The position numbers were made by a program, and so were the translations under genes. From Antedon bifida (Eukaryota; Echinodermata; Crinoidea; Comatulida; Antedonidae), in assembly GCA_963402885.1 (NCBI GenBank), contig OY727094.1:34908501-34972500 (forward strand): a DNA stretch of 64,000 bases, in the 5' to 3' direction. The notes below the pieces were generated by a model. It saw nothing but the letters and a program-made list of their open reading frames with translations, searched no databases and was not told the origin of the DNA. Positions 12,793-64,000 of this stretch are shown here, piece after piece (position 1 is the first letter of the stretch; each line of letters starts with the position of its first letter).

Positions 12793-14669
12793 GTAAGTAA
12801 TCTGTATTTGTTTCTGTTTTGTAGGTGAGAATCATCGAATTTGTCCATTCTTACCTTTCTTTGCTAATAATATAATGTATATACAGCCTCAACAACAACG
12901 CATGCATTTTCTCGTCTCTCAATTCAGAATGTGGCTATCACAATAAACACAATACAAAATACTTACATGTATTTATTTTTACTATGCTAGCTAGTGTAAT
13001 ACAGTAAATTCGTTTAATCTATTCCATTTTGGTGAGGTTACTCCAGTTTGTCGTCACTGGTTACCCAACCTATCCAATGTAATCCTAAGTACGCGTGCGC
13101 AACATAATTAGAACATTATAAATTACCCGGATGCTTGTCACTAAATTGACTATGAACAAACTGCACACATTGAACTTGATATGAAACGATCGTCACTTCA
13201 TACGTTTGACATATTTCACCAACCCTATTGATCTGATCCAACAGACTCATACAGAGGTAAATATGTTTCAAGACAAAACCTAAATTTATCCAAATTATAC
13301 CCTTAAGGGTCTTCTTGTTAAAGGGAAACATTACTACTAACTTGGCAGGTATCATTCAGGAAAGTCATTGTTAATTGAAAATTTTTTCTAGACAAATCGT
13401 GCAAATAAAATACGCTAAAAATGCTTTTTAGTCGAAAGAAAAGATACGGGACGCTGTTTGATGACATTGATAAATAATTGTGCAAACACATATGGTTTAG
13501 ATTTGTTTCAACTCCTCTATAATGTGGCGCGTAGATTTGTAAAAACTAGGGCTACAAAAAAGAATTGGGCCAATAGTGACATCCATAATGGCTTCTGATT
13601 CTGAATGAACGAGCAATAATAACCTTATAATACTGTATGTTTCGATGGAATGGTTAAACTTTTTTTTTTATTCTCTTTTTCAACTAAAGTACGTGGAAAA
13701 AATTACTATTCTATAAAAAAAATTTCTACAAATGAAATTACGAATCAATATTAAATATTTATGACCGTGTTCACATTTTTTCGCCGCACTTTATGGAATG
13801 AAAGGAAAGAAATTAAATTGTGATTTTTGATGTGTGCATTTAATTGTGTTTGTTTTGGAGATACCTTGATATAATTAATGCCTATAATACTGTACATAAG
13901 CGAGCATAGTGTAATAGTTGTAATCAATTAAATCACTTATTTTTTTTATTGTGTTTTTACTCTTGAATATTATTTTGATTCCTATTTCTTATAATATTAT
14001 GTTTTATGTATTTTATATTTGTTTTTTTGTGCCACTAATTTTAAAAGGTGATAACCAATGAATGAAACAATTTTATATAACACCTACATACATTCATGTC
14101 ATTTGATTGGACGATTGTATCACATGGCGTGAAATAATACGTACTATTTAACGATCGTGAAAAAGTACTTTTTTTTCATTTTTCGCGTATATCCAATACA
14201 GCACCGTCTGTTCTGTGACGCGCACCACGCGATCGCTCCTTTACAACGAGATCAGAACAATGACAGTGGCAATGACAAAAATCTATTTCGATGTTCTATA
14301 ACAAATACGATAATGAATGTTTTTATATTCGTTCTATTTCATATTTAAAAACTCAAGACGATGCTGCTAGATATGTTAAATAACGTACGCCTATGAAAAA
14401 CAAATGTACTGGTAATAATAATGAACTGTGCGAAATCAAATGACTTTGGACATTTTTGGTCCAACTGAATAAAACATAAAATGAGAGCATTACTTCTATA
14501 ATACAATAAAATAATGGTCTATTATGCTTATTAATAATATTCTGAAATTGTGTACAATTCAAAAAGTATTTTTAAAACGGTAGAAAAAAAAACACATTTC
14601 TATCGAAGTTGCTAAAATCAGTAAGAAAGTAAAATTCGACAAAATTAAATTAATTATTATTCTTTACAG

Positions 14670-15187
14670 ATTCAAAATGGATGAAAAAGATGTAGAATTC
14701 CAAACATTTCTGAAAGAACTAAGTGAACACTATTCTGGTGTAAAGATGCGATGGCTGAGAATGCTTCTATTTGGTATTTTACCCATTGGAACTCTTGATG
14801 AAAAATCAACCCTAGATTTATTTAATCAACTGACTGAACGTGGATGTATTTCCAAAACTGATGTTAAGCTGTTGTCGGACATTGCTGAAGTAACCATGAT
14901 GGTCTCAGCAACAAAACGCATAGACACATATAAGAACACTATCCAAAGTAGCGATACAGCAGGTGTAGGATTAACAGCATATCGCAGAGCAATGTTTAAT
15001 GTTCTAACTAACACTGACGAAGACGATTTGATGACGGTTATTGGTTTCTACAAACTGAGTGCCTACAACTATAACAATATATGGGATGTTGTATATCACA
15101 TTGAGAAAGCCGGACGCTTGAATTCACAAGACGACCGTGACACTTTTGTAAAGCTTATAAACCAACATGCACAAGGTTTTCTAAAAG
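14670..15187 (+). CDS. NLR-A exon 2: tandem death-effector-like domains
   Basis: First coding exon of NLR-A. The acceptor TTTACAG ends at 14669; the start codon is ATG at 14677, chosen because the phase-1 frame across the acceptor meets a stop at once, whereas this ATG opens 170 codons. The donor GT is at 15188 (phase 1). The product has two helical, death-fold-like halves, about residues 5-78 ('FLKELSEHY' ... 'GCISKTDVKLL') and 98-166 ('AYRRAMFNVL' ... 'AGRLNSQDD'), matching the size and hydrophobic pattern of tandem DEDs. In NLR proteins such modules recruit signalling partners after activation. The RxDL motif of classical DEDs is not evident, so 'DED-like' is as far as I would go. This exon does not align with the corresponding exon of NLR-B. 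Confidence 0.75.
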
Positions 15188-15576
15188 GTAGATCGCCACA
15201 TTATTATACATAATACACTTACTTGAGATCATTTGATTTAAATAGAACCTAATTATTACGTAATTTTGAAATGTGCATTTAACGAATAATAATATTATAA
15301 AACGAATCTCGGTTGGGCCGACTTTTTTTTCATTTTCAGATTTACTGATCTTTATATCGCTTTCAAAATTAATTAATAATAATAAACAAAATGACACCCA
15401 GGTTAAGTCCGAATAAAGGTGCATGTTATGAACATAAATATTTCTGTTATATTAGTTATATTTGAATGAAACATAATTTATGTTGAATTAATGCTCCCAA
15501 TAATTGAAATATTTGATGTAGGCCTATAGAACATTCATTATAAATTCACGTTTTTTTACTGTCATTTATTAAACAG

Positions 15577-17615: not shown

Positions 17616-17693
17616 TTGTAGGCCTTTATTAATTAAAATTAACTTAAATCAAATATCTTTCTTGACATTTTTCTTAATTTTTTTTCTCATTAG

Positions 17694-19678
17694 AAAAAAT
17701 TCAAGAATACCTGGTTCAAAGACAAAAGAAATTGTGTAGACAGGCCAGTAGATTTACACCACCAACAATGCGTGGTAGATACACAGTTGACATTTCGAAG
17801 ATGTTTACCGATATGGAACTACTGAAAGAACGTGAAAACAATACAGAAACCAACAAACCAAAAACATTAACAGAAGTGGTAGATGTTATCAGCTCCACAC
17901 CTGGATGTAGAGCTCTTATAGATGGCGAGGGTGGGATAGGTAAAACTACCATATTAAGGCATTTATCATACAACTGGGCTACTGGGCAATCAATTATAGT
18001 ATTTAAAGATAAAATTGTATTTCTTTTAAGTTTAAGAGATTTAAAACAAGATGACGACATCTTGGATATGATTGTAAAGGAAATTGATATGATAGAGTTT
18101 AGCAGGCATACAAAATTAAATTCAGAGTTAATTCAAGATTTTCTAATAACCCATGACGATAAATTGGTATTTTTCTTAGACGGATTAGATGAATTGAGAT
18201 TTAATAATCCAAGCGTAATAAGTCTGTTCAAAAAGAACAACTTACAAAACAGTACCGTGATACTTACTTCACGAGCAGAAAACATAGATGAATTCGTAAA
18301 AGAGAGTGACGTACATGTGAGAGTTAAGGGGTTTAATGACGAGAACATAGGCGAGTACATTGACAAACATTTTGGAAAACTAGAATTGGGAAAATCCCTT
18401 CGAAACGAATTGGATATTGACACTTATCGGGCTGGGAGGAAACATCCTGAAGCGTATGCAATGTGCAAAAATCCAATGCTGCTTTTTTCAATCTGTTTGC
18501 TGTGGGAAGACAGTCAGAGCTTTCCTACAGATAAAGCTGAACTTTTTAAAGAAATATTTCGTAACATTTTAAATCAGTTCAACAAACAGGAACAATTCGC
18601 AAAGCTTTCTAAATTTGAAAACACACCAGCAAAATACGTAAATGCTATGATATTGCTAGGAAAATGTATGTATGATAGCTTGAAAGTAAATCAACTTTCA
18701 ATAAACATGACAGCTTTGAATGATAAACATACGAATAAAGGTTTGGTTGATATGTCCGTGAAACTTGGATTTGTTTATGAAGAAGCACCGATTTTAAAAT
18801 CGAATTTTGAAATCATTTTTATGCCTCCTCACAAGTTGATAGTAGAGTCATTGGTGGGATTTTACTTGTGCAAATTATGTGAAAGTGAAGGTATTGAGAA
18901 TGAGTGCTCAGATGTACGAACATTACTTACACCATTGGATGATGATGAGTGGAAGGTGATACGAGAGAGTGAGCATTTATACAGAGCGAGAGAGTTTGCA
19001 ATTGGTTTCCTTGATGATAAAGCTGGCGGTTTCCTCAAGCACTGGGTTACAAATAGTTTGTCAACATATCGCAATCTGCCGAGAAATTTAAACTTTGTTA
19101 AAAAACAACATAAAGATGCTGTGGTAAATGAATTAATTAATCACATGACAAGCAAAGATTTAGAAATAAATAATCATTTGGATGATATATCTACCTCCAT
19201 AAGAATGTTTATTGATTACAAAAGTCCAGGTGTACAATGTGACGGGCATTTCATACGTCTAATTATGCAATTGTATTGTATGCAATATCATCATGTTAGT
19301 GATTCTGATTGTACCTATTATGAGTATAGTGTCGATGACTTTTGTAGTAAGATGGCATTGGAGCGAAAGGGAAGAGTTATTGCACACATTTTAGGCATTG
19401 ATGATAGATGTGACGGTTTTGCGATTTGGAATCTATCACGTGATGTATTTAATGACTTTGTATCAGAATGTTCTCTCAAACAAGTTCAATTAGCATTACG
19501 TCATCTCGATATCTCTGATAGTAAACTTCACAACATTGATGTTAATACAATGTCTTCATTTCTCATTATGTGTCCTGAGCTGAGGGTGCTTTACATGATG
19601 GATTGCAATCTATCAGCTGACGACATTCGTCACGTGTCTGAAAAGTGTTCAATAAGAAATATTACATTTCGTCATTAG
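17694..19678 (+). CDS. NLR-A terminal exon: NACHT ATPase and leucine-rich C-terminus
   Basis: Large last exon, acceptor CTCATTAG ending at 17693, stop TAG at 19676-19678; with the other exons it gives about 898 residues if linker 1 is skipped. After a 'YTVDISKMFTDMEL' segment typical of invertebrate NLRs comes the NACHT domain: Walker A 'GEGGIGKTT' (about 17924-17950), Walker B 'FFLDGLDELRF' near 18172-18204 and a sensor-like 'STVILTSRAE'. NACHT proteins use ATP-driven oligomerisation in cytosolic innate sensing. A helical region follows, then a short leucine-rich end with 'LRHLDI' and 'LRVLYMMDCNL'. No membrane segment is seen. A candidate poly(A) signal AATAAA is at 20321. From about 18835 to the stop the gene matches NLR-B at every comparable silent site but differs at about 34 codons. 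Confidence 0.88.
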
Positions 19679-19917
19679 TTAGTTTTCACTGATAACGTAT
19701 GTTACTTCTACTATATAACAGACATATTTTTAAATCTCGCAGCAAGCAGGTGTCAATTTTTAATATCGCAAATAATTTCATTTCTAACATTAAATTTGTA
19801 TTCAATATAAAAACGACCTTTTATATATAAATCGTATAGTAGATTAAATCAATATGATGATCTAAAACATTATACAATGTTTTTAAACATTTTATTTTGA
19901 CATACTTACCTTCATCG

Positions 19918-20026
19918 ACGGAGCGCGCGCGCGTACTTCCGCACGCGGCACACTAGCAACGGAAGTAATAATTATTAACAGCTGTAGCATGCAGATAAAC
20001 AAGAATGTTTGTTTCTTATTCATTAT
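19918..20026. other. GC-rich insertion downstream of NLR-A
   Basis: About 105 bp including GCGCGCGCGCG sits in the 3' flank where unit B reads straight from CATCAACGGA into TTTATAAGCTG (near 42640). The rest of the flank aligns closely. No family is recognised. Confidence 0.5.
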
Positions 20027-21371
20027 AATCTTTATAAGCTGTGCTGCCATGTTTAATGACAATGATTCTTTTATAATAATGTAATGTTTTTTACTTGATA
20101 TATTGTATAGAATTGGTTGTGCGTGTTTTAAAGTAATTATGTGATAATATTATATTAAATGTAATTAATACAACTCTTTATAATTAGGTTGGATGGTTAA
20201 ATACTAAAAGTAAAGTGGTACAACTTGAAACTACAAAAAATAGCATGAACATGATCAAACGTAATTTGTTATCAAAAGCAGTTTTATTAAATGAAAACGT
20301 AATTAGAAATTATATTAACAAATAAACACATTATGAGATGTCTTTGGCACAGTAACAACAACAGAACAAAGTTGAAGTAGAATTTGTAAAACTAAAAATG
20401 ACAAAAATCAAACAATGAAGACATTATATAATATAGTTTGATATCAATGAATTTTGCATTTAGTTTCATTGCTGTGTTTTTTAATATATTTTTTGATGTA
20501 GAAATATTTTTTCTATATGATGTAGAAATAGTGAAATATAATTCTGTATAAAATAAATTTAAAGTTGATAAGTTATGGATTACCATTTATAGATTGGAAT
20601 AATTAAAGGTTCTACTTAATTTTGAGATATATTTGTGTACAGTCTTTGATTTTCTTTTGTTGTAAGAGTAATAACACTTTGGTGCTAACAATAGTTTAAA
20701 CCTGAACACTGTGCTGACTTGTAATAACACTTGGTGTTAACAATAGTTTAAACCTGAACACTGTGCTGACTTGTAATAACACTTGGTGTTAACAATAGTT
20801 TAAACCTGAACACTGTGCTGACTTGTAATAACACTTGGTGTTAACAATAGTTTAAACCTGAACACTGTGCTGACTTGTAATAACACTTGGTGTTAACAAT
20901 AGCTTAAACCTGAACACTGTGCTGACTTGTAATAACACTTGGTGTTAACAATAGTTTAAACCTGAACACTGTGCTGACTTGTAATAACACTTGGTGTTAA
21001 CAATAGTTTAAACCTGAACACTGTGCTGACTTGTAATAACACTTGGTGTTAACAATAGTTTAAACCTGAACACTGTGCTGACTTGTAATAACACTTGGTG
21101 TTAACAATAGTTTAAACCTGAACACTGTGCAGACTTGTAATAACACTTGGCGTTAACAATAGTTTAAACCTGAACACTGTGTTGACTTGTAATAACACTT
21201 GGTGTTAACAATAGTTTAAACCTGAACACTGTGCTGACTTGTAATAACACTTGGTGTTAACAATAGTTTAAACCTGAACACTGTGCTGACTTGTAATAAC
21301 ACTTGGTGTTAACAATAGTTTAAACCTGAACACTGTGCTGACTTGTAATAACACTTGGTGTTAACAATAGT

Positions 21372-25073
<3,702 letters not shown>

Positions 25074-26255: not shown

Positions 26256-29200
26256 ATAGTCCAGGAGTATTAGACTTTGAGGTAGAAATAAATATGCTAA
26301 AGCTGAATTTTTCAGGATAGGTCCCTAATGTTGTCTGAAACAACATACTAAAAGTCCCCGGGTTTCCCCGTTGTGCTTCTACCCGATTGGGCCATTTTTC
26401 AAAATGGCGGCCATCTTAAAATTATTTACCATATGTTAACAACCAGTAGGTGTAAGTAAACAATCTTGGTGTCAAAATACTCAGAAGACCCATATTTATA
26501 TTCACTGTAATGGAAAAGTTTAACAAAAAATGGTCAGAAATGCCTGTTTTGACCTTTGACCCTAAATTTGGATTATCTCAATATCTCATCAACGACTGGC
26601 TGTAGAGACGTCAAAGTTGTCCCAAATTATTCAGAATGCCCAACTTTCTATTCACTTTAATGAAAGAAAAATACCAAATTCCTTTAGAAACCTTCTATTT
26701 TGACCTTTGAACTATTGACCTAGACATATTTTAATTTTATAGACATCTTGGTGATCGATAAGAGTACACAAGCGAAATTGGTGTCAAAATACTCAGAAGA
26801 CCCACATTTATATTCACTGTAATGGAAAAGTTTAACAAAAAATGGTCGGAAATGCCTGTTTTGACCTTTGACCATAAATTTGGATTATCTCAATATCTCA
26901 TCAACGACTGGCCGTAGGGACTTCAAAGTTGTCCCAAATTATTCAGAATGCCCAACTTTCTATTCACTTTAATGAAAGAAAAATACCAAATTCCTTTAGA
27001 AACCTTCTATTTTGACCTTTGAACCATTGATCTGGTCATATTTTATACCAAAATTGTATAGAAATCTTGGTGATCGATAGGAATACATAAGGGAATTTGG
27101 TGTCAAAATACTCCAAAACACCCATGTTTCTGTTTACTCTTATAGAAATAATGTACTGAATGCGATTGAAAGTGTTTTGACATTTGACCCTAATAATTAC
27201 ATTTTAATGAGAATTAGTCTATTTCGTGCCTAGCTTACCTGTATAAACCGACAATAGCCCGTGCTCTCCAGAGGGAGGGCTTAAATGCAAAAAGTTAAAT
27301 TTAAGTTGACATAAAGATAGACAGAATCTAACAATTCATCAGTATGGCCATTGCCATGAGAGGTAAAATTCATTCCAAATTGCTCAGATGCTAAACAGAC
27401 AAACCAAGCCCCAATTTTAAACTATATATATATGATACATTTTACTGTCTGTTTGGGCTTTAGCCTGTTTTCACTTCTTTTATTCATTAGTAACCAAACA
27501 AATTTTATTATTTATTTATTATTTAAGGTTAGAAATTAGTCCTCCAAAAAATGCCACGCCTTCTCTATATGGCTAATGTCCATGTTTAAACTTTGGAGCT
27601 ACACCAATTCTGAAATGTTTCCTCTTCGGCAGTGTCATTTAATATATAGCAGAGACCACTACTGGTTGATTTGACACACACTTATTGGTAAAATTGGTTT
27701 TTTTTTTCAATTGAGCTGCACTATTACATTTCTTTGTGTATATAGGTCTGGAGTACATAATTCATCTTATAACATTTTTTAAATTGTCTAAAACTGCACA
27801 CTGTACATAGTCACCCACCCAACCATTTATCAAGGTCTCAGTCTAAGTCTCATTTTAGGCTCTAGTCATACCTCCGATTCTTATCTGATATGATGCAATT
27901 TAATTTTAAAAGAATTATTGCATTTATCTTTAAGATGTGAACATTTTTCTCTGTTTTTTTCCAATCAAAATTCTCTAAAAATCGAAAATACTTCAGGACT
28001 ATAATTATGATGGTTAATAAAATAAGGGCATGAAAATCTGTTGAAGACCATAACAACTTTACAGTGACAATTTCTTTATAATTCATCTTGATAGATTTGT
28101 AAGAGTTTCATATTGTATTTTATTATTTAGGTGATTTGTCAAATGACACATTGTGACCCTTTGATACCTGAAATTATGGCCTCATATCTATATTGATGAA
28201 TAGTATTATTCGTCCATCGGACATTTTTTTCTGGGCTGTTTCGGATAAATTTGACATCTCATGGCATGATGAATGGTGTGATATGTCCATCATGCTATTT
28301 TGGACTTAAATTATTAAATTATAATGTAGTGATTAAAGTCAAAGGTAAAAAAACATGGGTGTTTAGGAATATTTTGACAACAAATTCGCTTATGTATTCC
28401 TATCGATCACCAAGATTTCTATATATTTATGATATAAAATACTGTATTGGCCAGATCAATAGTTCAAATGGCAAAATAGGTGGTTTCTAAAGGCTTTTAG
28501 TATTTTTCTTTAACTACAGTGAATAGAGAGTTGGGCACTCTTCTTAATTTAGGACAATTTTGAAGTCTCTACGGCCAGCAGTTGATGCGGTATTGAGATA
28601 ACCCAAATTTAGGGTCAAAGTTATAAATTTTTAAACCAATTTCGTATCCTATCGATCACCAAGATGTCTATAAAAATAAATATGCCTACGTCAATAGTTC
28701 AAAGGTCAAAATAGAAGGTTTCTAAAGGTTTTTAGTATTTTTCTTTCATTAAAGTAAATAGAAAGTTGGGCATTCTGAATAATTTGGGACAACTTTGAAG
28801 TCTCTACGGCCAGTCGTTGATGAGATATTGAGATAATCCAAATTTAGGGTCAAAGTTCAAAACATGCATTTCCGGTCATTTTTTTAAAAACTTTTCCATT
28901 ATAGTGAATATAAATATGGGTCTTCTGAGTATTTTGACACCAATTTCGCTTATGCACTCCTATCGATCACCAAGATGTCTATAAAATTAAAATATGCTTA
29001 GGTCAATAGTTCAAAGGTCAGAATAGAAGGTTTCTAAAGGAATTTAGTGTTTTTCTTTCATTAGAGTGAATAGAAAGTTGGGCATTCTGAATAATTTGGG
29101 ACAATTTTGAACTCTCTACGGCCAGTCGTTGATAAGATATTGAGATAATCCAAATTGATGGTCAAAGGTCAAAACAGGCATTTCCGGTCATTTTTTTAAA

Positions 29201-29476
29201 AACTTCTCCATTACAGTGAATATAAATATTGGTCTTCTGAGTATTTTGACACCAAAATTGTTTACTTACACCTACTGGTTGTCAAAATATGGTAAATAAT
29301 TGTTAAGATGGCCGCCATTTTGAAAAATGGCCCAATCAGGTTGAAGCACAACGGGGAAACCCGGGGACTTTTGGTATGTTGTTCCAGACAACATTGGGGA
29401 CCTATCCTGAAAAATTCAGCTTTAGCATATTTATTTCTACCTTTGGCCCTTTTTTTGTCTAATACTCCTGGACTAT
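26256..29476. mobile_element. 3.2-kb inverted-repeat element with internal 310-bp repeats
   Basis: The ends are inverted copies of ATAGTCCAGGAGTATTAGA (26256 onward and up to 29476). The arms (about 26256-27150 and 28350-29476) are built from two to three tandem units of about 310-316 bp with a recurring 'TCAACGACTGGCCGTAG' segment. Unit B lacks the whole element at the aligned place (near 49745-49775), so it is an insertion. The central 1.2 kb encodes nothing recognisable. Likely a non-autonomous foldback-type DNA transposon. Confidence 0.8.
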
Positions 29477-37339: not shown

Positions 37340-37525
37340 GTACACTGATAATGTATTCACTCATAAAGACTTAATACAATATTATAAACAATATTAGTAT
37401 AATAAGTACCGACATAAAAAAAGATTAGTCCGCTTTACATATATGATTATATATACAGTAATCCTAGTGTTGCATTAAATAATAATACACTTTTTAAAAA
37501 TTGTTCTGTTTCCACCATTTTATAG

Positions 37526-38026
37526 ATTTTGATCTTGATTTAGTAAATGTTTCAACTTGGTATGATGAACATAATCTCGTCACAAAGCTGAAAGTTTTGT
37601 ACAAAGATTTGATTGCAGTAACGAACATGGACAGCGCCACCAACACAATACACTTACTACAGGAATTAAGGGCAAATGGACGTTTAAGTTCAGACAATCG
37701 TATATTGCTATACGATACAATAAAAGTAACTGAACAGTTTGGTGTCATAGATCGTCTCAAACATTCTTTTCTTGAAGTTCAAGAAATTACTAAGTTCACT
37801 CGATATCGACTACAAATTGTAGCATTCGGAAATGGACTTAGACAGGCTGATGTGGACAGAATCGATGCATTGTACAATGGTAGTGCGTTAAAGAATTATA
37901 AAGATGCCTGGAGTATGATTCTGGATTTGGAAGAGAGACGAATAATCTGTGAAGAAAAAATTGAAGAATTCATTAACAATTTAAGACAAGTTGGACTGGA
38001 ATCAAGAGTAACACTTCTGACTGAAG
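37526..38026 (+). CDS. NLR-B exon: tandem death-effector-like domains, second type
   Basis: 501-nt phase 1-1 exon between CATTTTATAG and GTAAGT. It encodes two death-fold-like halves: the first with 'LLQELRANGRLSSDNRILLY', the second from about 'FTRYRLQIVAF' to 'EEFINNLRQVG'. The hydrophobic spacing and the 'G-R-L-S-x-D-N' segment fit a DED better than a CARD or DEATH domain, but the call is by eye. Its sequence is not alignable with the NLR-A exon, although introns and linker exons downstream are clearly homologous, so the N-terminal signalling module has been exchanged. Confidence 0.7.
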
Positions 38027-38136
38027 GTAAGTTAGTGCGAAAAGCTAAAGAAACATTAATTAATTTTTAAAGAATTACCAGTATAGAATATCATTGTAGC
38101 CTAAATTCATGTTTTGTCATGTCATTTATTAAACAG

Positions 38137-38368: not shown

Positions 38369-40162
38369 GTTAGTTGCTTCAGAATAATAATACAGTATTT
38401 AAACAAAATCCTTTTTGATGTTTAATTCCAATCCTGACCACACAGAGAATGATATAATAATTAGGAAGCTTCATTGTTTTAAAAACGAAATGTTGTTAAC
38501 ATCATAATAAGTAAGACTCATATTACACATATTATTATTCTTAGAGATCCAATAAGCTTAATTCTAATCCGCATGACAAAGTTTGTTTACTGAATACAAA
38601 TAAAAATAGGTCTTCTAAAAAGTTAGATTTCAGAGTAGGCCCTAAATAATATGTTTTATCAATTTGGATGAATTAAAAAGTGTGTTTGCCGCCCTCTATA
38701 TTTCCGCCTGCGCTACAATTCAATGAAAAACCGAAAGTTGCAACAATAACTTCATTAACCATCAAGTGTGTGATTAAAGTTTATGATACTGGCGAAAAAA
38801 TAAACAACAATAATATATATATACATTGGCAAATTTGAAGGTGTATACTTGGCCTCGTACTACATTTCTGTAACAATCAAACATTCTTAAAGCATTAAAA
38901 ATATGAGATAAGTAGTAGTAATTAGTACGGTCTATTTTTTTTAATTTTTAATTCATTTATATGTAATTTTACTTTCTATGGACCAGAGATTCCAAGATAA
39001 AAGATTGAATGAATGATAAAATCACATCGTCTTACTTTAATTTTGCTAATTTAATAATAATTAATTTGATAAAATGTCTTCGTAAAACAATTGATGAGAT
39101 TTTGTAATCAAATTCAAAAATAGTAATTCACCGAAATATTTCATGTACTGTAGTTACAATCATCTTAGTTCAAATAACATTGTTAAAATTAATGCTATAT
39201 TCTGTTTGCCGCCTTCTATAATCCCTTTTATTTTCATGGATACAGAATTAAGGCCTATAAATGCACAATTGTGTATGCCAATTGGCATAAAATTGAGGAT
39301 AATCATAAATAAATGTGATTATGACGTAGATAATTGTTAATTCAGTTTCAATCATAAACATCTTACGTAACCTTTTAACCTAATAATAATTATAAATAAA
39401 AAACATGTCACACGCAGTGGTGGTGTATTCTCTTTTCACGAAAAACCAAAGAATAGAATACGTAAAATCAATACATTTAATATAGCAAACGCGTGTTTAC
39501 AACAGCAGCTCCCCGATATTACCAGTTAGTTTTAATTTAGAATAAATGGCAAGGTTTTAAATTAAATTAATTCGTACACGAGTGCATGATTTCAATTTTG
39601 AATAAAAGAAAATGTATTTACAGTTTTAACTTTTCCTATTAAAATTAATTGTCAAAACTATCACTTTGAACGCAATTTATATTATTTCTGTTATTTGTTA
39701 TTGCTTTCGTATTAAGAAAAAACGTTGTACCGAGATGCCTGAAAAATCTTTAATTTGTTATACTGGTAGTATTTGTAATACTTTTTTATTTCACCTACAA
39801 GAAAGTGATACATGCGTGTTACAAAGCTAATGTCGTAAAAAGTGAATGTATAAAAATCAGCTCTCATCATCAATGACCACATTAGCACTAGCACGTCACA
39901 TTAGGTTTTACCAAATAAGCGGTGGATTGCTCTACATTTTAACGGTTGTTACGATTTGCTGGCGACCACCAGTCGTTTAACAGAGTTTTCTTTCTGATTG
40001 ATAATAAATTGTGTTTGTCGCCCTCTATATTATTTACTCGGTTTACTACTTCGACGGGGCTCCAGTACTACCTATTGTATTACAGTACTAGAAATTGCAA
40101 GGCCCTTATTAAATAAAATTTAATTTACTAAATATTGTTTTTGCATTTTTCTTCGCATCTAG

Positions 40163-42390
40163 ACAAAATTGAAGAATATCTGCTTCAAAGACAAAGGGAA
40201 TTGTGTATTCAGGCCAGTATATTTACACCAGCAACAATGCGTGATAGATACTGTGTTGACATTTCGCAGATGTTCACTGATTTGGAACTACGCAAAGAAG
40301 CTAAAAATAATAAAGGCTGCAAACCAACAACATTAACAGAAGTGGTAGATGTTATCAGTTCCACACCTGGATGTAGAGCTCTTATAGATGGGGAGGGTGG
40401 GATAGGTAAAACTACCTTATTAAGGCATTTATCATACAACTGGGCTACGGCTACTCAATCAATGAAATCATTTGAAGGTAAAATTGTATTTCTTTTAAGT
40501 GTAAGGGATTTAAAAAAGGATGATAACATTTCCGATCTAATTGTAAAGCAACTGGATATGGAAGACTTTAATTTAGAAACAGATCTCCCAGATGATCCAC
40601 GGTTAATTAAGAAATTCATGAAGAAGAATGACAATAAAGTTGTACTGCTACTAGATGGGTTAGATGAATTAAGGTTTAATAATCCAAGCGTACTTAGTCT
40701 TTTCAAAAAGAACAACTTAAAAAACAGTACTGTGATACTTACTTCACGATCAGAAAACGTAGACCAATTCGTAAAAGCATGTGACGTACATGTAAGAGTT
40801 AATGGGTTTAACAACGAGAACATAGGAAAGTACATTGACAAACATTTTGAGTATTTTGAACAACCACAATTGGCAAAATCCCTTAGAAACGAATTGGGTA
40901 TTGACACTTATAAGTCGTCGTCGTTGGTGGTGGATGAGGAGTCGTCGTCGTCGGATGAGGAGGAGGAGGATGATGATGATGAGGAGGAGTCGTCGTCGTC
41001 GTCGTCGTCGGAGGAGGAGGAGGAGGAGGAGGACGAGGAGGATGGGGAGGAGGACGAGGAGGACGAGGAGGAGGAGGAGGAGGAGGAGGAGGAGGAGGAG
41101 GAGGAGGAGGAGGAGGAGGAGGAGGAGGAGGAGGAGGAGGAGGAGGAGGAGGAGAAGGATGAGGGGTTGGAGGAGGAGGATAGAAAACATCCCGAAGCGT
41201 ATGCAATGTGCAAAAACCCGATGCTACTTCTTTCACTCTGTATATTGTGGGAAGATAATCAAAGCCTCCCCGAAGATACAACTGACCTCTTTAAAGAACT
41301 ATTTCGTAGTATTTTAAATCAGTGTATCAAACAAGAAAATGAACCAAAGATTTCTGATTTTGAAAAAACACCAGCGAAGTACGTAAATGCTATGGTTTTA
41401 TTAGGGAAATTTATGTATGATAGCTTAAAAGTAAACCAACTTTCAATCAACAAAACGGATTTGACTGAACATTCGAACAAAGATATGGTTGATATGGCCT
41501 TAAAACTCGGGTTTGTTTACGAAGAAGCACCAACTTCAAAATCTAAATTTAATAAAATTTTTATGCCTCCTCACAAATTGATAGTAGAGTCATTGGTGGG
41601 ATTTTACTTTTGCAAATTATGTGAAAATGATGGTATGGAGAATGAGTGCTCAGATGTACGAACATTACTTACACCATTGGATGATAATGAGAGGGAGGTG
41701 ATACGAGAGAGTGAGCATTTATACAGAGCGACAGAGTTTGCAACTGGTTTCCTTGGTGATAAAGCTGGCGGTTTCCTCAAGCACTGGGTTACAAATAGTT
41801 TGTCAACATATCGCTCTCTGCCGAGAAATTTAAACTTTGTTAAAAAACAACATAGAGATGCTGTGGTAAATGAATTAATTAATCACATGACAAGCAAAGA
41901 TTTAGAAATAAATAATCATTTGGATGATATATCTACCTCCATAAGAATGTTTATTGATTACATTAGTCCAGGTGTACAATGTGACGGGCATTTCATACGT
42001 CTAATTATGCAATTGTCTTGTATGCAATATGATCGTCATAGTGTCAGTACCTTTTGTAGTAAGATGGCATTGGAGCGAAAGGGAAGAGTTATTGCACACA
42101 TTTTAGGCATTCAAGATAGAAGTGTCGTTGTTGTGATTCACAATCTATCACGTGATGTATTTAATGACATTGTATCAGAATGTTCTCTCAAACAAGTTCA
42201 ATTAGCATTACGTATTCTCGATATCCGTGATAGTAAACTTCACAACATTGATGTTAATACATTGTCTTCATTTCTCAGTATGTGTCCTAAGCTGTATTGG
42301 CTTGGCATGAATGATTGCAATCTATCAGATGACGACATTCGTCACGTGTCTGAAAAGTGTTCAATAAGAAATATTACATTTGTTCTTTAG
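40163..42390 (+). CDS. NLR-B terminal exon: NACHT ATPase with poly-Glu insertion and leucine-rich C-terminus
   Basis: Last exon, acceptor CGCATCTAG ending at 40162, stop TAG 42388-42390; the full model is about 955 residues. 'YCVDISQMFTDLEL' leads into NACHT: Walker A 'GEGGIGKTT' (about 40390-40416), Walker B 'VLLLDGLDELRF' (near 40642-40677), sensor-like 'STVILTSRSE'. Between 'IDTY' and 'RKHPEAYAMCKNP' a 90-residue Ser/Asp/Glu insert replaces three residues of NLR-A. The C-terminal 280 residues are almost the NLR-A scaffold with clustered replacements, ending in short leucine-rich repeats. A cytosolic innate immune sensor is the expected role; the acidic insert makes folding of this copy uncertain. 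AATAAA lies at 42960. Confidence 0.87.
40912..41181 (+). repeat. In-frame trinucleotide expansion (TCG/GAT/GAG)n in NLR-B
   Basis: 270 nt of TCG, GAT, GAC and GAG codons, with an uninterrupted run of 30 GAG codons at 41065-41154. It encodes serine runs, then aspartate, then a long glutamate run. NLR-A has only nine bases here, so the insert arose by repeat growth after the split. The antisense and shifted frames are also open (poly-Pro, poly-Leu, poly-Arg, poly-Ser) for purely compositional reasons. Confidence 0.97.
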
Positions 42391-43282: not shown

Positions 43283-43752
43283 AGAGTAATAACACTTGGT
43301 GTTAACAATAGTTTAAACCTGAACACTGTGCTGACTTGTAATAACACTTGGTGTTGACAATAGTTTAAACCTGAACACTATGCTGACTTGTAATAACACT
43401 TGGTGTTAACAATAGTTTAAACCTGAACACTGTGCTGACTTGTAATAACACTTGGTGTTAACAATAGTTTAAAGCTGAACACTGTGCTGACTTGTAATAA
43501 CACTTGGTGTTAACAATAGTTTAAACCTGAACACTGTGCTGACTTGTAATAACACTTGGTGTTAACAATAGTTTAAACCTGAACACTGTGCAGACTTGTA
43601 ATAACACTTGGTGTTAACAATAGTTTAAACCTGAACACTGTGCAGACTTGTAATAACACTTGGTGTTAACAATAGTTTAAACCTGAACACTGTGCTGACT
43701 TGTAATAACAATTGGTGTTAACAATAGTTTAAACCTGAACACTGTGCTGTGC
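43283..43752 (+). repeat. 52-bp minisatellite downstream of NLR-B, about 9 copies
   Basis: Same unit as at 20663-21443, with fewer copies. Position relative to the NLR stop codon and the HELLS-like copy is conserved. Confidence 0.97.
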
Positions 43753-54612: not shown

Positions 54613-55479
54613 CCCCTTCTCTGCGTATACCCGGTACTACCGGGTATAAACAAACGTCGTTGAAATACGTATACCCGGTAATACCGGGTATGGGCAAAAC
54701 AATTATTTAATCGTATTTGCCTATAATATATAGCACCCTCTATATTCTTTCGATGAACTTGAATATTTTTGCAAGTCATTAAAAAAAATTTCCAGCAAAA
54801 AAAACGGCCCTCTATAGTTGTATTATCGTCTTGAAAATAATGCGCCCTCTATAGTTAATTAATTAATTAATTATATATAGTATAGTATATATAATAGTAT
54901 TTCTATCTTGGAAAGTTGTTTTGAGTAGCGTAATGGCGGCAATTTTGAAAGTAACAAAAATGTACCAGCCCCAATAGGGCAACATCGTGTTTATCACAAC
55001 ACCCAAAAAAAAAATTCTGAAACAATAGTTAGATTTTGTACTATAGTGAATTTTTGGAAACTGTCATTATTTTCACGATTTTGCCCCAAAACTTTGATTT
55101 GTGCATAATTTTTATAAAACAATCAAAATAATTCAATTTTTTTTTATATTTTTATTTGTTATACGTATCTTCATCAATATCCAGTTGGAAAAACGTATTC
55201 CATAAGAATTCTTATAAAAAATATAGTTTTTATCATTGATTCGATAAAAAACAAGAAATTTAAAATACCTGTAATGACGTCACATGACAATCCATCAATA
55301 TGCAAATTACTTTTTTTTTTATACCTAACTGTAGACTAACCCTTTGCCCATCACACACAACAAAAATAATTACACAATTATCTCAATTAGTATTTTTTTG
55401 CAATTTATTAAAATATCATATGTTTTTCTTAAATATATATTACGCACAGAGGTAGGAATAATGCTCCGCAGTGAAAGGG
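54613..55479. mobile_element. piggyBac-like non-autonomous element, 867 bp
   Basis: Flanked on both sides by TTAA (54609-54612 and 55480-55483); unit A has one TTAA at the empty site 7741-7744. The terminal inverted repeats read CCCCTTCTCTGCG and, inverted, CCCTTTCACTGCG. TTAA duplication with CCC-starting ends is the hallmark of piggyBac. Near the left end are two copies of a self-complementary TACCCGGTA(C/A)TACCGGGTA motif. No transposase is encoded. Confidence 0.92.
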
Positions 55480-55968
55480 TTAAGCCAATTTGTAAGTTTA
55501 CACTAATTACACAGTAGTTGACGTCAAAGGGAGTGGCGCAGTTGCTGCTACAAATCGTCACATTTAACTGTATCGGTATATTGATAGTCCAGATACGAGG
55601 AGATCCATGAGTTACAGTCCAGTCTTAAGCCAATTGTAAGTTTACACTAATTATACAGTAGTTGACGTCAAAGGGAGTGGCGCAGTTGCTGCTACAAATC
55701 GTCACATTTGACTGTATCGGTATATTGATAGAGTCCAGATACGAGGAGATCCATGAGTTACAGTCCAGTCTTAAGCCAATTGTAAGTTTACAATATTTCA
55801 TTAATATAGTTCGGAACAATAATATGAGAATAATATAGGCATAGCTCTGATGGTTATGCTTCCATTGTTATTTGTAGTAGAGTGTGGGTTGTTATTATTG
55901 TGATAGGGGTGTGGTATGTTATGTTTTATGTATAGAAGGCGGGATAGAAGGGTCTATTGAAGGTTTAC

Positions 55969-57957
55969 GATGAAATCGGTCGCGTCTGAAATCGGTCGCG
56001 TTTGAAATCGGTCGCGATAAAATCAACTTCCGGTATTTTAACTTCCGTTAGAGCTATACGTTTGAAATCGGTCGCGTTTGAAATCGGTCGCGCTATTTTG
56101 TATGGAGCGAGATGCATGCTAGCGGGATATACATTTTCTTCGATTATATAGTCTAGATGATTTAATTGATATTTTTTAGGAACCAGATTATTTATGTGGA
56201 TATTTTTTATTTTTGTTAATAAATATTTATTGTAATTGTAGTTTTTGCGTCAGGGAGTTGAGTAATTAGATGTTTTTGCCCTACTCTGACGTAATTTGTA
56301 CCCGAGAACAACTTGCGAATTTTTTCGCAAGTATTCTCAAATGTACTTAGTATAAAGTACAAATTACGTCAGAGTAGGGCAAAAACATCTAAATATTTAT
56401 TATCAATCATTTTTTTTTATTTCACAGGTCTCGAAGAAGGCCTGTATCTTTTCAAAATGGCCATTTCTAATCACGTTTAAATATTATTTTATTAGGCATA
56501 ATAATAATATATAATAATTTACATCTATTTTATTATGTACTGTAATTAATATATTATATAGAGAATATACGTCTGTGTCTTTTATTATGCAAACAATTAC
56601 GTAAAAGAGAACAATTTATTTAAAAACAATAATTGTTACATTGTATAGCCCGTAAAGCCAGCGTATCCATTTTTATACTTATGCATACTGTGGCAGATAT
56701 ATCATATCCATGTCGTTAATAACTTACTATTGGATCACCTTATTTTAATTTCTATTTTATTTATGTCCGTACGTTATGTAGGATAATATTAAGTATAGGC
56801 CTATAATGATTATTGTTGAGGCAAATCACGTGTATATTTTTATTTCTAATGTTTAGGCCTAATAGTTTCTAGTAAAAATGATTATTATATGCGGATCGTT
56901 AAAAGGCGAGTTACTGAAATAAACCCCGAAATAGGCCATATAGTGGATGCGCCTTCTATGATCGTGCAGACGTTAACTGCACGTTATTTTGCTGACGGGG
57001 ATTCCCTTAAAAAAAACACGCACTACGGTGTCAAATCATGGAAAAAACACGTACGATCGTTGTTCATGGCCATGTAAAGATGACGTATAGGCCTATTACT
57101 AATAACCATACGTTTGAAACATCTAGGCCTGCACGTCTTTTTGTGAAACATAGTTCCATGGTGAAACGATGTATATAATGTACGTATATACGTCGGTGAT
57201 ACTAGGCCTATAGTTTTTAATTTTAATATCTTTTATTTCTTCATTTAGGCCTATAATAATCACTTAATGTAAATAATTAAGTAGGCCTACCGTATCATTG
57301 TACACCATAGTCCACTGTATAGGCCCGGTAGATTGATTTATAACAGCATATTATTTTATTAGTAGGCCTATTATCCTAAAACCATGCTCACGTAAGAGTG
57401 ACGGATATCGAACGTAAAAATCATCGTCATACATCATCTTCCTTTTTATTGCATAAACCTCATTGAGCTGGTATCCACTTGCAGGTATAGAACTAGTGAT
57501 TTAAAAATACGCAATAGGCGCGTCTACTTGTTTAATATTAAATTATTTTCAACATTTTTAAAACTTTAAACAGTGGCATGCTAATCTTTTCAAAAACTTA
57601 AAACAATATTCAATAACACTTTTAACAACGATTTTCTAAACGAACACATTACAATTATTCATTGACATCTGTAAGATAAAATGAAAACACAAATTATTTA
57701 TAAATAATGAGATAAATATTTATATTTACTGTAGGCCTACTAAAAAATAATAACGATCGAGGTGAAAAAAATGTTAATAGTATTAGAAATTCTATATTCA
57801 AAATTAACTAAAAACATAATTAGCGTTTTCATTAAAAATATATCGACCGATTTCAAACGCGACCGATATCATTAAACGTATAGCTCTAGCGGCGCGCCAT
57901 ACAAAATACCGGAAGTTGATTTTATCGCGACCGATTTCAGACGCGACCGATTTCATC
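55969..57957. mobile_element. Iteron-ended DNA element, unit C copy (both ends present)
   Basis: Left end GATGAAATCGGTCGCG and right end CGCGACCGATTTCATC are exact inverses, each followed by further GAAATCGGTCGCG copies and the shared phrase AAAATCAACTTCCGGTATTTT. Contains about 1.09 kb (56606-57692) that unit A lacks, with an unrecognised plus-strand open frame of 62 residues (56889-57077). Most likely A suffered internal deletion. No target duplication is clear. Confidence 0.7.
56231..56390. mobile_element. 160-bp hairpin MITE
   Basis: Absent from unit A, where TAAATATTTAT is followed directly by CATCAATC. In C, AAATATTTAT is present on both sides (56221-56230 and 56391-56400). Within it, 56268-56301 and 56357-56390 are perfect 34-bp inverse complements around a 55-bp loop. 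A 9-10 bp target duplication is indicated. Confidence 0.85.
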
Positions 57958-60519
57958 TGACACCATATTGGTTGGGAAGACAATAGTATAGGGTAGGGGT
58001 GTGGTGTATTATGTTTTATGTAGAGAAGGGTGTCTACTGAATGGGAAGACAATACAATTGTTCTGTTATGTAACCTACAGTACAAACTACAAGGAACAAT
58101 ACAGAACATCAAAAACTAGCAATGCATGTACTTTTATAAGGCATGTTATTATTAGGTATATTGTGTTAGGGAATGCCAAGATTTTGTAACAATATTACTA
58201 TATTAACTAGGCCTATGTATATTTACTATATATAAAAACTAACCTAAAACACTACAGTATAATCACAATTAAAACATATTAAATACATACTGTTATGCCT
58301 ATCTTGATTTCAACACATTAAATTTTAGTACAATATCGGAATTAAAACATGTTAAACTACAAAACAACTAAACTAAATATCACAATCGGAATTAAGAAAT
58401 CTTAAATACTACAGTACAATCGTTATTAAAATATCCTAAATACTACATTACAATCGGTTAAATTACCTACACTCTAAATTGTTGTGAACGTAAAAGAATG
58501 TTGGCAAATGCATTCTAATCCTATTGGTAGATAAATAAATATTTTGTATTTGCAAGGGATAAATCTCAACATCGTGGATTTGAACCTAAGAACCTGGTAT
58601 CGGTAGACGAACATAATTCATTGACATAATTATATGTTTTTTGTTTGTTTTACCATACATTTACATTTAATGCTAAGTGTAAAACGAATTGTAGATACAG
58701 AAACAAAATGGTAACAGATTCATTGACATAATAATTATTATATGTATTTTTGTTTTACGACGAATCGGCTATTTTGATGGATTATAATCAGTATGTGATA
58801 GATCTTATTAAATGTACTACTGTCATCTTTATTAAATATACTACTGTGTTATCGTTAGATAAATTATATTTTTTATTTGTAACTGGAATAAAAACTAATT
58901 TCTTTATATACTTTCTGTATCTATAAATCCCTAAAAATTATTCAATATCCACCTTAGGGAATCCACCTAATATCCATATTAGGGAAGGATACCTAAAAAT
59001 TATATTGAAATAAAGAGCCTTAATATACTGTATTAACTTGAAAACTTAAATTAATTCAACAGCGTGCAGGGCGTTAGTTGTTTTCCCTTTGTTGCTGAAA
59101 CATTATGCACTAAACAAAAGAACAAAAGCAGCCGTATTTTAACACATTAACACACTCAAATAATAAATGGGACACCCCTATTTTCCCATCTTTGTATAAT
59201 GGTATAGTCCATATTATAAGTCGAGGTAGCCGAAAACGGCACCTGATCCGAACCTGATCATAATCCTCGGGTGATTACCGAACCTGATCATAATCCTCGG
59301 GTGATTACCGAACCTGATCATAATCATAAATGCAGCGGGTGTTCACTCCTCTTGCGTTCTGCGCAATACTAGCACCGCCAACTACAATAATAATACATTT
59401 GCTCGGCCGGACTCCATTTATAGCTCTGCTAGTTACTTTTTCGTTTATGGTTATGTGGTTGTGGATCGGAAATGTTGACCTGTTCCTGTTAATTGAACGT
59501 ATACACATGTTCTCGTCTCTCAATTCAGAATGTACGTGGCCATAAACAAAACAGATACATAATTATATTTTAACATTTTTATATTTTAACTATGCTAGTG
59601 TAAATTTGTTTAGTTTTGACTAATATTTCATTTTGGTGATGTTACTCATGTGTTCAGTAGTGTTACTGATTGCGCAACCTGTCGCCTGGCCAACATAATC
59701 CTAGTACGCTGCGGGTAGCAAAACATAAAGAATACAATAATAATAGTAATGACATCAGAATAAGATGTTTGGTTCTTATTTTGTATTCCATCGATACTGT
59801 GTACTGTACGTTTACAAAAACAATTGTTGAGGTAAACAAACAGGTGGATTCAGATGAAATCTGATCGTCTATCTTCACCCGTTTGTATTGTTTTGCTTCT
59901 TAAAAAAATATTGATAAATATAATATATTATTGCACAAACAGTGTTGTAAATAAATACATTAAAAAACAATTAAGTTGAGATGAAAATGTAATCTATTAT
60001 AAACAAGATAGCTATAAGATGATATTGTGCTTAACTTCCTTAATGGTGATGTAACAACAATCTAAAAATCAGATGTTGGAATTTGTTTCATTTTTCTTTA
60101 AAATAATAGTTTTATTTCCTTCACGAAAGACAACGTTTATACCAGTTTGGATTTCTTGTTATCGGAATAGAACATTTTAATAACTTCCTTATAGCGTGCT
60201 GATAACAAGAACTCATTGTGGTTCTTAACTTAATGAGAAGAAAAACAACTCAATTACACAGCAAAATACAATAGCAGATTATACAGATATTACAATAACA
60301 GAACAGATTTTTACTTCAATAAAAACGTTAATGTTAAAATAATACAATGTACAACAACATTTATTTTTATCTCCGTGGTGCAAACTTTCTGCTGTTAGAC
60401 TTCTAGAGCAGACGTTACGGTGTGTTTAAAATACGAACAAACCAACAAAATTGTGTTGTAATATGTTAAGGCAAAGAATTTTGGTCGGAAGCAGCAAAAC
60501 TGAAATGGAAAAATAATAA

Positions 60520-60786
60520 ATGGAAAATCAGAACCAAACCCTAAATCTAAACCAAACTCACAATCAGCACCAAACTAAAAATCAGAACCAATCTCAAAAT
60601 CAGAACAAAACCCAAAATCAGAACGAAACCCTAAATCTAAACCAAACCCAATTTCAAAACCAAACTCACAATCAGCACCAAACTAAAAATCAGCACCAAA
60701 CTAAAAATCAGAACCAATCTCAAAATCAGAACGAAACCCAAAATCAGAACCAAGCCAAAAAACTAAACCAAACCCAAATTCAGTAG
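60520..60786 (+). repeat. Asn/Gln-coding short tandem repeat, unit C
   Basis: Expanded counterpart of 11469-11651 with a different repeat number; open for 88 codons. Considered a repeat rather than a gene. Confidence 0.7.
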
Positions 60787-60806
60787 TCTGAATCACGCAA
60801 TCCAAA

Positions 60807-61203
60807 GATAATGGATATGCATGATGATAGTGTACAATAAGTTGCTGTGTTTTAAGATAATGGATATGCATGATGATAGTGTACAATCAGTTGCTGTGTT
60901 TTAAGATAATGGATATGCATGCTGATAGTGTACAATAAGTTGCTGTGTTTTAAGATAATGGATATGTATGCTGATAGTGTACAATAAGTTGCTGTGTTTT
61001 AAGATAATGGATATGTATGCTGATAGTGTACAATAAGTTGCTGTTTTAAGATAATGGATATGTATGCTGATAGTGTACAATAAGTTGCTGTGTTTTAAGA
61101 TAGTGGATATGTATGCTGATAGTGTACAATAAGTTGCTGTGTTTTAAGATAATGGATATGTATGCTGATAGTGTACAATAAGTTGCTGTGTTTTAAGATA
61201 ATG
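60807..61203 (+). repeat. 49-bp minisatellite, unit C, about 8 copies
   Basis: Same unit as 11670-12070, with private variants (GCATGATG in the first two copies, a 2-base loss in one copy). Confidence 0.95.
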
Positions 61204-61804
61204 TTTATCAACTGTACACATTGTTGTTCATCTGACCTTTGACATGACGAAATTTTACAAAGGTTTTAGCATCCGCGCCTACATCAAATGCGTCTGTTAC
61301 AGTTACAGCACTTTATAATAGGCCAAATAAATCAACGTTGTTCCGTACACGTGTAGGCCTACAATAGTGACATAAAAAAAAGACAAAAATTAACATAAAT
61401 CATTAAATTTAGCTCTATGGTAAACTGTTATAAATAAATAATAAAGAAACACATACGAAGTTATGAACTAACAAATCATGCGTTTTGTTTGAGTGATTAT
61501 CACGTCATGCATGAATGCACAAAGGAAGCCGGTACTTCCTTCATGATGAAATATTAAAATCAAGAACCTAGAATTCTTATATTATTATTGTGGTATCAGC
61601 TTCAATGGTCTACTCGTCATGACATAGCACTTGAGCACTTTGTTGTTTGTTCATTTCATGTCGCTCATCATTGAACTTATGGTGATCACGATTAGGTTGA
61701 TCCGGCTTTTTATAGTTAGCCGACTTTGCTTTAAAGTGAGAAAACAATTCAATCTGCATTACTGGTAAACCAATGTGTATTTTTCATAATCACAGTGAGA
61801 GCTG

Positions 61805-61810
61805 TATAAA
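61805..61810 (+). promoter_or_regulatory. TATA box of NLR-C
   Basis: TATAAA followed by GG at the place of the unit A TATATAAA; the downstream donor AACCA/GTAAGT (exon end 61928) is also kept. Supports a third, separately transcribed NLR gene. Confidence 0.5.
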
Positions 61811-63787
61811 GGAAACATAGCTGTTGCAACATAAGGAAACATTACAACAGTTGGTACTTAAGTGAAAAGGCCCTGACGACGAACTCAGAGGAAACATTGT
61901 TCATAGCAACAGACGACCTCGTTAACCAGTAAGTAATCTGTATTTGTTTCTGTTTTGTAGGTAAGAATCATCGAATTTGTCCATTCTTACCTTTCTTTGC
62001 TAATAATATAATGTATATACAGCCTCAACAACAACGCATGTATTTTCTCGTCTCTCAATTCAGAATGTGGCTATCACAATAAACACAATACAAAATACTT
62101 ACATTTATTTATTTTTACTATGCTAGCTAAGTGTAATACAGTAAATTCGTTTAATCTTGACTATTCCATTTTGGTGAGGTTACTCCAGTTTGTCGTCACT
62201 GATTACCCAACCTATCCAATGTAATCCTAAGTACGCGTGCGAAACATAAAGAACATTATAAATTACCCGGATGCTCGTCACTAAATGAACAAACTGCACA
62301 CATTGAACTTGATATGAAACGATCGTCACTTCATAAGTTTGACATATTTCACCAACCCTATTGATCTGATCCAACAGACTCATACAGAGGTAAATATGTT
62401 TCAAGATAAAACCTAAATTTATCCAAATTATACCAAATGGTCTTCTTGTTAGAACATTACTACTAACTTAGCAGGTATCATTCAGGAAAGTCATTGTTAA
62501 TTGAACATTTTTTCTAGACAAATCGTGCAAATAAAATACGCTAAAAATGCTTTTTAGTCGAAAGAAAAGATACGGGACGCTGTTTGATGACATTTATAAA
62601 TAATAATTGTGCAAACACATATGGTTTAAATTTGTTTCAACTCCTCTATAATGTGGCGCGTAGATTTGTAAAAACTAGGGCTACAAAAAAGAACTGGGCA
62701 AATGGGTGACATCCATAATGGCTTCTGATTCTGAATGAACGATCAATAATAACCTTATACTGTATGTTTCGATGGAATGGTTAAACTTTTTTTTGAATTC
62801 TCTTTTTCAACTAAAGTACGTGGAAAAAATTACTATTCTATAACAAATGTCTACAAACGAAAATACGAATCAATATAAAATATTTATGACCGTGTTCACA
62901 TTTTTCGCCGCACTTTATGGAATGAAAGGAAAGAAATTAAATTGTGATTCCTGATGTGTGCATTTAATTGTGTTTGTTTTGGAGATACCTTGATATAATT
63001 AATGCCTATAATACTGTACATAAGCGAGCATAGCATAATAGCTGTAATCAATCAAAACACCTATTTTTTTTTATTGTGTTTTCACTCTTGAATATTATTT
63101 TGATTCCTACTTCTTATAATATTATGTTTTATGTATTTTATATTTGTTTTTTTGTGCCACTAATTTTAAAAGTAATAACCAATGAATTAAACAATTTTAT
63201 ATAACACCTACATACATTCATGTCATTTGATTGGACGATTGTATCACATGGCGTGATAATACGTACTATTTAACGATCGTGAAAAAGTACTTTTTTTTTC
63301 ATTTTTCGCGTATATCCAATACAGCACCGTCTGTTCTGTGACGCGCACCACGCGATCGCTCCTTCACAACGAGATCAGAACAATGACAGTGGCAATGACA
63401 AGAATCTATTTCGATGTTCTATAACAAATACGATAATGAATGTTTTTATATTCGTTCTATTTCATATTTAAAAACTCAAGACGATGCTGCTAGGTATGTT
63501 AAATAACGTACGCCTATGAAAAACAAATGTACTGGTATAATGAACTGTGCGAAATCAAATGACTTTTGACATTTTTGGTCCAACTGAATAAAACATAAAA
63601 TGAGAGCATTATTTCTATAATACAATCAAATAATGTTCTATTATGCTTATTAATAATATTCTGAAATTGTGTACAATTCAAAAACTATTTTTAAAACGGT
63701 AGACAAAAAAAACATTTCTATCGACGTTGCTAAAATCAGTAAGAAAGTAAAATTCGACAAAATTAAATTTATTATTATTCTTTACAG

Positions 63788-64000
63788 ATTCAAAATGGAT
63801 GAAAAAGATGTAGAATTCCAAACATTTCTGAAAGAACTAAATGAACACTATTCTGGTGTAAAGATGCGATGGCTGAGAATGCTTCTATTTGGTATTATAC
63901 CCATTGGAACTCTTGATGAAAAATCAGCCCTAGATTTATTTAATCATCTGACTGACCGTGGATTTATTTCCAAAACTGATGTGAAGCTGTTGTCGGACAT
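63788..64000 (+). CDS. NLR-C exon 2, partial: death-effector-like domain
   Basis: Acceptor TTTACAG ends at 63787; ATG at 63795; 206 coding bases remain before the window ends. It is the close paralogue of NLR-A residues 1-69. Seven base differences are seen, six of them replacing an amino acid (S16N, L to I and T to A near residues 35-45, Q to H, E to D, C to F) and one silent. The frame is open to the end. The rest of the gene lies outside the window. Confidence 0.75.

Follow-up and report, generated by a model that had tools for sequence, protein, structure and literature searches.

The C-terminal coding tract of a family of NLR genes in Antedon bifida, together with about 380 bp of 3' flank, is one homogenised block with common edges, set on gene bodies that diverged much earlier. 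Within this young backbone a small set of codons has accumulated replacement changes almost to saturation, while silent change at the same codons stays at the backbone level. The pattern is probably the product of exchange between copies, which would keep the block young, and of extreme diversifying selection, which would rewrite the recognition surface. Two members of the family, NLR-A and NLR-B, lie on the forward strand of the window, the stretch of 64,000 nucleotides at C7:34908501-34972500 that was analysed.

The tract of NLR-A, a homogenised backbone with hypervariable codons, spans 18836-19678 and ends with the stop codon, and the same block recurs as the tract of NLR-B at 41578-42390. 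The upstream part of each tract's open frame, in stop-to-stop coordinates, holds a NACHT domain (70.7 and 79.5 bits in a domain profile search with a cut-off of 26.7). This part covers 17678-18835 in NLR-A, where silent and replacement change are mixed as in ordinary divergence, and 40132-41577 in NLR-B, which also carries an acidic insertion. Open frames at 14584-15213 and 37498-38070 are, by position only, candidate N-terminal exons of NLR-A and NLR-B, respectively; both are separate from the NACHT frames, and their death-effector-domain matches of 24.9 and 26.4 bits lie under the cut-off of 35.9. An LRR_4 match in NLR-A reached 15.8 bits, under the cut-off of 27, and the same search gave no LRR match for NLR-B; signs of LRRs in the family are the LxxLxLxx pattern and the 59-aa tandem units in sister genes. 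Judging from these sequence features, the tract appears to be the recognition end of a clustered NACHT-LRR receptor family. The part of the 3' flank inside the homogenised block is 19679-20058 in NLR-A, with a right edge that is approximate because it was taken from 100-column bins. About 1 kb 3' of each NLR there is a 52-bp minisatellite (20668-21444 with 14.9 copies and 43286-43749 with 8.9 copies), and between NACHT and tract NLR-B has an in-frame GGA/GAG microsatellite (40913-41180), absent from NLR-A, which encodes a long Ser/Asp/Glu-rich stretch, mostly poly-Glu. The window also contains an inverted repeat with arms of 624 nt, 92% complementary, at 26420-27043 and 28678-29301.

The original prediction held that the two C-termini differ at about 34 codons and share every silent position. 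In the codon alignment of the tracts, 39 of 271 aligned codons encode different residues and none differs synonymously; realignment had been proposed as the check that might bring out several synonymous differences, and it brought out none. The prediction holds, in a slightly stronger form than it was given. With a silent share of one-step mutations of about 0.19-0.20, the chance of 0 silent among 39 was estimated by hand as about 0.8^39, near 2e-4. We counted 14 codons changed at two or three bases, where at least 11 had been claimed, and the segment described as differing by indels corresponds to one 10-codon length difference, next to which the placement of a few changes depends on the alignment. 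At 18600-18700, about eight silent differences in some 35 codons had been reported, and the alignment gives seven silent and five replacement differences in 33 codons; over the longer upstream region 17800-18835, 50 silent and 94 replacement codons were found in 343. Past the stop, where a few changes had been noted, 6 of 220 aligned bases of the 3' flank are mismatched between the two genes. The prediction had offered two readings. A conversion tract followed by diversifying selection is supported by the common edges, by a history separate from that of the gene body and by changes at LRR-type codons that are mostly replacements. There is no need to invoke codon-level, replacement-targeted diversification: the silent third bases of the variable codons are at backbone level, and in a recent triplet of genes with a related tract, silent change was at an ordinary level and the members of each pair differed by one surface change.

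The pattern is a property of the whole family and not of one pair. A search of 315.6 Mb of genome with the tract returned 127 first-look candidates, 40 of which were scored; the 39 scored copies other than NLR-A were 87-92% identical to NLR-A. All 40 scored places were examined, as 39 genomic stretches and NLR-B from the window. The tract was open in 36 of the 40, and the broken copies L042, L051, L055 and L059 were excluded from the counts. At the variable codons, the broken copies carry 20-26 replacement differences from the consensus and the intact ones a mean of 25.6 (n = 36); the two resemble each other, and the comparison therefore favors neither mutation nor selection. Twenty further stretches were examined and 11 of them added, giving a set of 47 copies, in which L069, frame-shifted near its start, was counted only downstream of the shift. 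The other nine were excluded, L065 as broken and L070, L071, L073, L074, L076, L077, L080 and L081 for another architecture or poor register, and six further stretches with repeat arrays were also examined. Among the 1081 pairs of the 47 copies, the median was 36 replacement versus 3 silent codons per pair, and 75 pairs had no silent difference. A conserved 36-base piece of the tract occurs at 105 genomic places with at most three mismatches, against 0 for the control, and many of these places are tandem units or other sister genes. For the NACHT family, the genome yielded 229 candidates, of which 103 were scored.

Over the 271 columns, 36 copies showed 876 replacement versus 68 silent minor alleles. 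Most of the residue variety is carried by about 24-26 codons, with up to 14 amino acids per codon, and many of these are x sites of LxxLxLxx in LxxLxI and LxxLxM strands. On the forward strand of NLR-A they include the x sites around L and I of the strand LRHLDISD (19502-19519), codons of the strand LRVLYMMD (19583-19603) and of the segment DDRCDGFAIW (19400-19429), and the C-terminus (19664-19675). The x sites of LxxLxLxx are expected on the concave, ligand-facing side of LRRs; based on this motif geometry, the variable codons may touch ligand. In the sister NLR genes L082-L087 (C7:33.6-33.9 and 34.1 Mb), double-LRR units of 59 aa are repeated in tandem. Among 33 distinct in-register units of the 38 found, at least six residues occur at each of positions 13, 14, 16, 41, 42, 44, 46 and 47, which are LRR positions equivalent to the variable codons of the tract. 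The number of units differs among paralogues in this one assembly, and L083 has a pair of units with the same amino-acid sequence, as unequal crossing-over would give. Small in-frame insertions lie near variable codons of L028 (a 15-bp tandem duplication), L058 (12 codons) and L021 (10 codons), which suggests slippage or unequal exchange.

The edges of the block were located using 21 long copies, in which silent divergence is 0.252 over 380 codons upstream versus 0.018 inside the tract and drops within some 15 codons on either side of the tract start. In the 3' flank, divergence is 0.02-0.05 up to about 380 bp past the stop and beyond that mostly 0.07-0.18, in an alignment whose distal part is gap-rich. 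Across 19 copies, after removal of two sister copies, distances in the tract backbone are not correlated with those upstream (Mantel r 0.06, p 0.33), whereas two upstream parts compared with each other as a control gave r 0.51 (p 0.0005). Nor is there agreement between one half of the tract backbone and the other (r -0.15, p 0.82). L056 and L057 are identical over 865 bp, and their differences start within the tract and continue for about 3 kb; this identity ending inside the tract is a direct recombination break in it. Tract similarity was the criterion by which copies were retrieved, so the low divergence of the tract is partly a product of the query; this does not apply to the edges that the copies have in common, nor to the decoupling of tract and gene body.

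The silent sites of the variable codons provide a clock by which the sources of this variation can be weighed. General hypermutation of the LRR region, by AID-like deamination, an error-prone polymerase or a RIP-like process in germline or soma and followed by selection, fits the restriction of high replacement diversity to the tract. However, the codons with extreme replacement show no rise in silent change. Among 44 copies, after removal of three sister copies, minor third bases at fourfold codons number 3 of 343 at variable sites versus 32 of 3457 for the backbone, with pairwise fourfold divergences of 0.0142 and 0.0162, respectively; pairs with the same residue use different codons in 21 of 6198 cases at variable codons versus 2861 of 204585 elsewhere; and the one-step types among variable codons are 0 silent versus 104 replacement. 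A path-averaged count gave pS of 0.060 at variable codons versus 0.0215 elsewhere, in favor of raised mutation, and we ascribe this to averaging over multi-step codon paths because the direct counts show no rise. General hypermutation was therefore rejected and is extremely improbable; a blind mutator is insufficient for the pattern. Adenine-templated mutagenesis was also rejected: some variable columns, for example 295, have an unchanging third-base A, and the A-rich backbone between variable codons is invariant. Alternatively, the silent sites could be held by constraint on the nucleotide sequence itself, with surface variation that is old and not fast. Backbone pN (0.030) is close to backbone pS (0.0215) and the 3' flank is conserved too, as such constraint would have it, but tract divergence is independent of gene-body divergence and the break in L056/L057 is an exchange in the tract itself. 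An overlapping antisense gene as the cause of silent conservation is unlikely, because among closed stop-to-stop frames no antisense frame of at least 150 aa lies over either tract. Overall, we consider nucleotide constraint improbable. The bases within variable codons raise another possibility, namely that a dedicated germline process, template-guided or codon-position-aware, alters bases 1 and 2 of set codons and leaves selection as a filter only. Heterozygosity at bases 1, 2 and 3 is 0.47, 0.50 and 0.09 in variable codons and 0.043, 0.032 and 0.023 in the backbone (44 copies), so that bases 1-2 exceed fourfold divergence about 30-fold, or about 50-fold after saturation correction (by hand), and minimum replacement to silent events are 198:6 and 193:42, respectively. 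The near-frozen third bases lie below the 0.18-0.25 obtained in matched replacement-only simulations, and third bases account for 6 of 104 one-step replacement types at variable codons, rarer than the 12.3% expected (p 0.02), compared with 21 of 185 in the backbone, where 13.6% was expected (p 0.22). While this deficit favors a dedicated process, it can be explained by site-specific amino-acid preference, which is inseparable here from a codon-position-aware process. Moreover, bases 1 and 2 of a codon depend on each other to a degree reached in 0 of 500 shuffles, which is the behaviour predicted for a filter on amino acids. The adenine signature that diversity-generating retroelements leave is lacking as well.

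Recent pairs bear both on such a process and on the remaining rival, in which surface codons are reshuffled by frequent gene conversion from resident donors with little new mutation. L022 and L023, 205 kb apart, have no substitution in 5782 and a further 9128 aligned flanking bases (about 14.9 kb), which differ in a few lengths, one of 868 bp. Their tracts nevertheless differ by 14 substitutions, 13 of them replacement, although a neutral divergence of at most about 2e-4 and a ratio of 50 lead us, by hand, to expect less than one surface change. All 14 lie within one 263-bp patch (clustering p 0.02-0.04), and 7 of 16 variable sites are unchanged, which is compatible with one random donor (p 0.25). 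These features support reshuffling, as does the real break in L056/L057. On the other hand, no resident donor for the patch was found in the loci examined, where the best single-piece match covered 3 of the 14 differences, so that import from an unsampled allele or copy must be assumed. We prefer to read the patch as an import from an allele or copy absent from the assembly; the pair is possibly an assembly duplicate with allelic tracts. L022, L023, L088 and window positions 54873-64000 belong to a segmental or assembly duplicate. In L028/L035, 2 of 3968 bases differ upstream and 8 of 1895 downstream, and a more distal upstream stretch of about 4 kb has 21 mismatches; the tracts differ by four bases, all replacement, and a 15-bp insertion. 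Here 11 of 14 variable sites are unchanged (one random donor, p 4.5e-6) and the differences are scattered, against reshuffling, and they look like point changes. They include a third-base replacement, TTG to TTC, of a kind that counts against a process confined to bases 1 and 2. L025/L029, 49 of 3923 bases apart upstream with 34 replacement codons in the tract, was dropped as a clock for the speed of change, since 370 of 1903 aligned bases differ downstream and a recombination break is likely in that flank. Common runs of variable codons equal column shuffles: among 33 copies there were 179 runs of at least three against 184.9 shuffled and 7 of at least five against 7.8, and among 44 copies 408 against 406.4, with 0 runs of at least six against 2.6. 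Tract copies thus behave as independent draws at variable codons. Such behaviour is compatible with a star-like spread after which each copy changed on its own, and it leaves frequent exchange among present copies unsupported. Reshuffling from resident donors is very unlikely. The unlinked neighbouring codons and the tract changes of L022/L023 on an unsubstituted background speak for a dedicated process, whereas the three-unit genes L070, L071 and L076 count against any automatic one: 9-11 base differences per pair include 2-3 silent ones and one changed surface codon (in L070/L071, two differences are past the stop and one is beside a gap). The dedicated germline process is unlikely. In its strong form, an animal diversifier would rewrite bases 1 and 2 of set LRR codons, spare third bases and nearly everything else, and re-randomise a copy faster than one neutral substitution per 15 kb, and for this too we see little likelihood.

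We therefore return to exchange plus diversifying selection as the likely explanation. Gene conversion and unequal crossing-over would have repeatedly spread one version of the roughly 1.2-kb block to paralogues located on two or more contigs (C7 and C8 among them), keeping silent sites and 3' flank about 2-5% apart on much older gene bodies. After each spread, selection would fix amino-acid changes at about 24 codons at some 30-50 times the silent rate and would continue until many of them are near saturation. The exchange is presumably germline gene conversion, the variable sites presumably contact ligand, and pathogens would be the driver of selection. What stands against this explanation is the L022/L023 contrast between flank and tract with its missing donor, the lack of a trace of frequent exchange in the runs of variable codons, and the scattered changes in L028/L035 along with the rarity of third-base replacements. 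A further point against it is that, to our knowledge, the replacement to silent rate ratio of the tract is far above that of other known receptors. With a young common backbone, dozens of copies in a single genome, near-saturated surface codons and, in those very codons, silent sites that serve as a clock (about 1.4-1.6% divergence at fourfold positions), the family is a clean natural experiment on the speed at which the recognition face of an innate immune receptor changes.

Plant NLR clusters such as RPP8 combine copy exchange with diversifying selection in LRRs; these are plant receptors and ours are animal NLRs, and the likeness drawn here is one of process. The Podospora NWD receptors (het-d, het-e) contain NACHT and repeats homogenised within and between loci; in each repeat, a few codons of the interaction surface are under diversifying selection, and RIP has been proposed as an added source of mutation (PMC1805685, PMC4986451). 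The Antedon tract likewise has a backbone homogenised across loci and a replacement excess at set codons, but the fungal repeats are WD, ANK and TPR, whereas here they are animal LRRs without sign of raised mutation. The zebrafish NLR-B30.2 genes form a large family, mostly on one chromosome, in which exchange differs between NACHT and C-terminal module and dN/dS is high in the recognition module, the authors arguing against LRRs (PMC4852459). Those NLRs are also clustered, with split histories of NACHT and C-terminal module; the diverse module is B30.2 in the fish and LRRs in the crinoid. In conotoxins, position-specific codon conservation, with silent conservation beside hypervariable codons, has been debated as a codon-level mechanism versus amino-acid selection (PMC3823881, citing Conticello 2000). 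Conserved cysteine codons are at issue there, while here conservation is seen within the hypervariable codons, at their third bases. In jawless fish, the variable lymphocyte receptors owe their LRR diversity to somatic assembly from cassettes (PMC13428168); in contrast, each tract copy counted here has its open frame in the germline, and no cassette that could serve as a donor came to light. The tract also differs from diversity-generating retroelements, having no adenine-specific variation (A is fixed at column 295), and from deaminase somatic hypermutation, as silent change in its variable codons is not raised. With this family, the pattern known from fungi and fish is found in the LRRs of an echinoderm as well; the family differs from known cases in its LRRs, its block of about 1.2 kb including 3' flank, its rate contrast and the lack of a sign of raised mutation. 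In the available portion of a paper on a 575-Mb sponge genome (PMC12909245), the term hypervariable is absent, and we recognised no description of a homogenised hypervariable NLR block in the literature searched, a partial coverage that leaves absence unproven.

Apart from the NLR family, the mitochondrial contig C27 (L091) was found to carry COX1. A neighbouring frame on it is ND1-like and speaks for an echinoderm genetic code: taking it to be ND1 and using its conserved sites, we found that it reads best with AAA as Asn.
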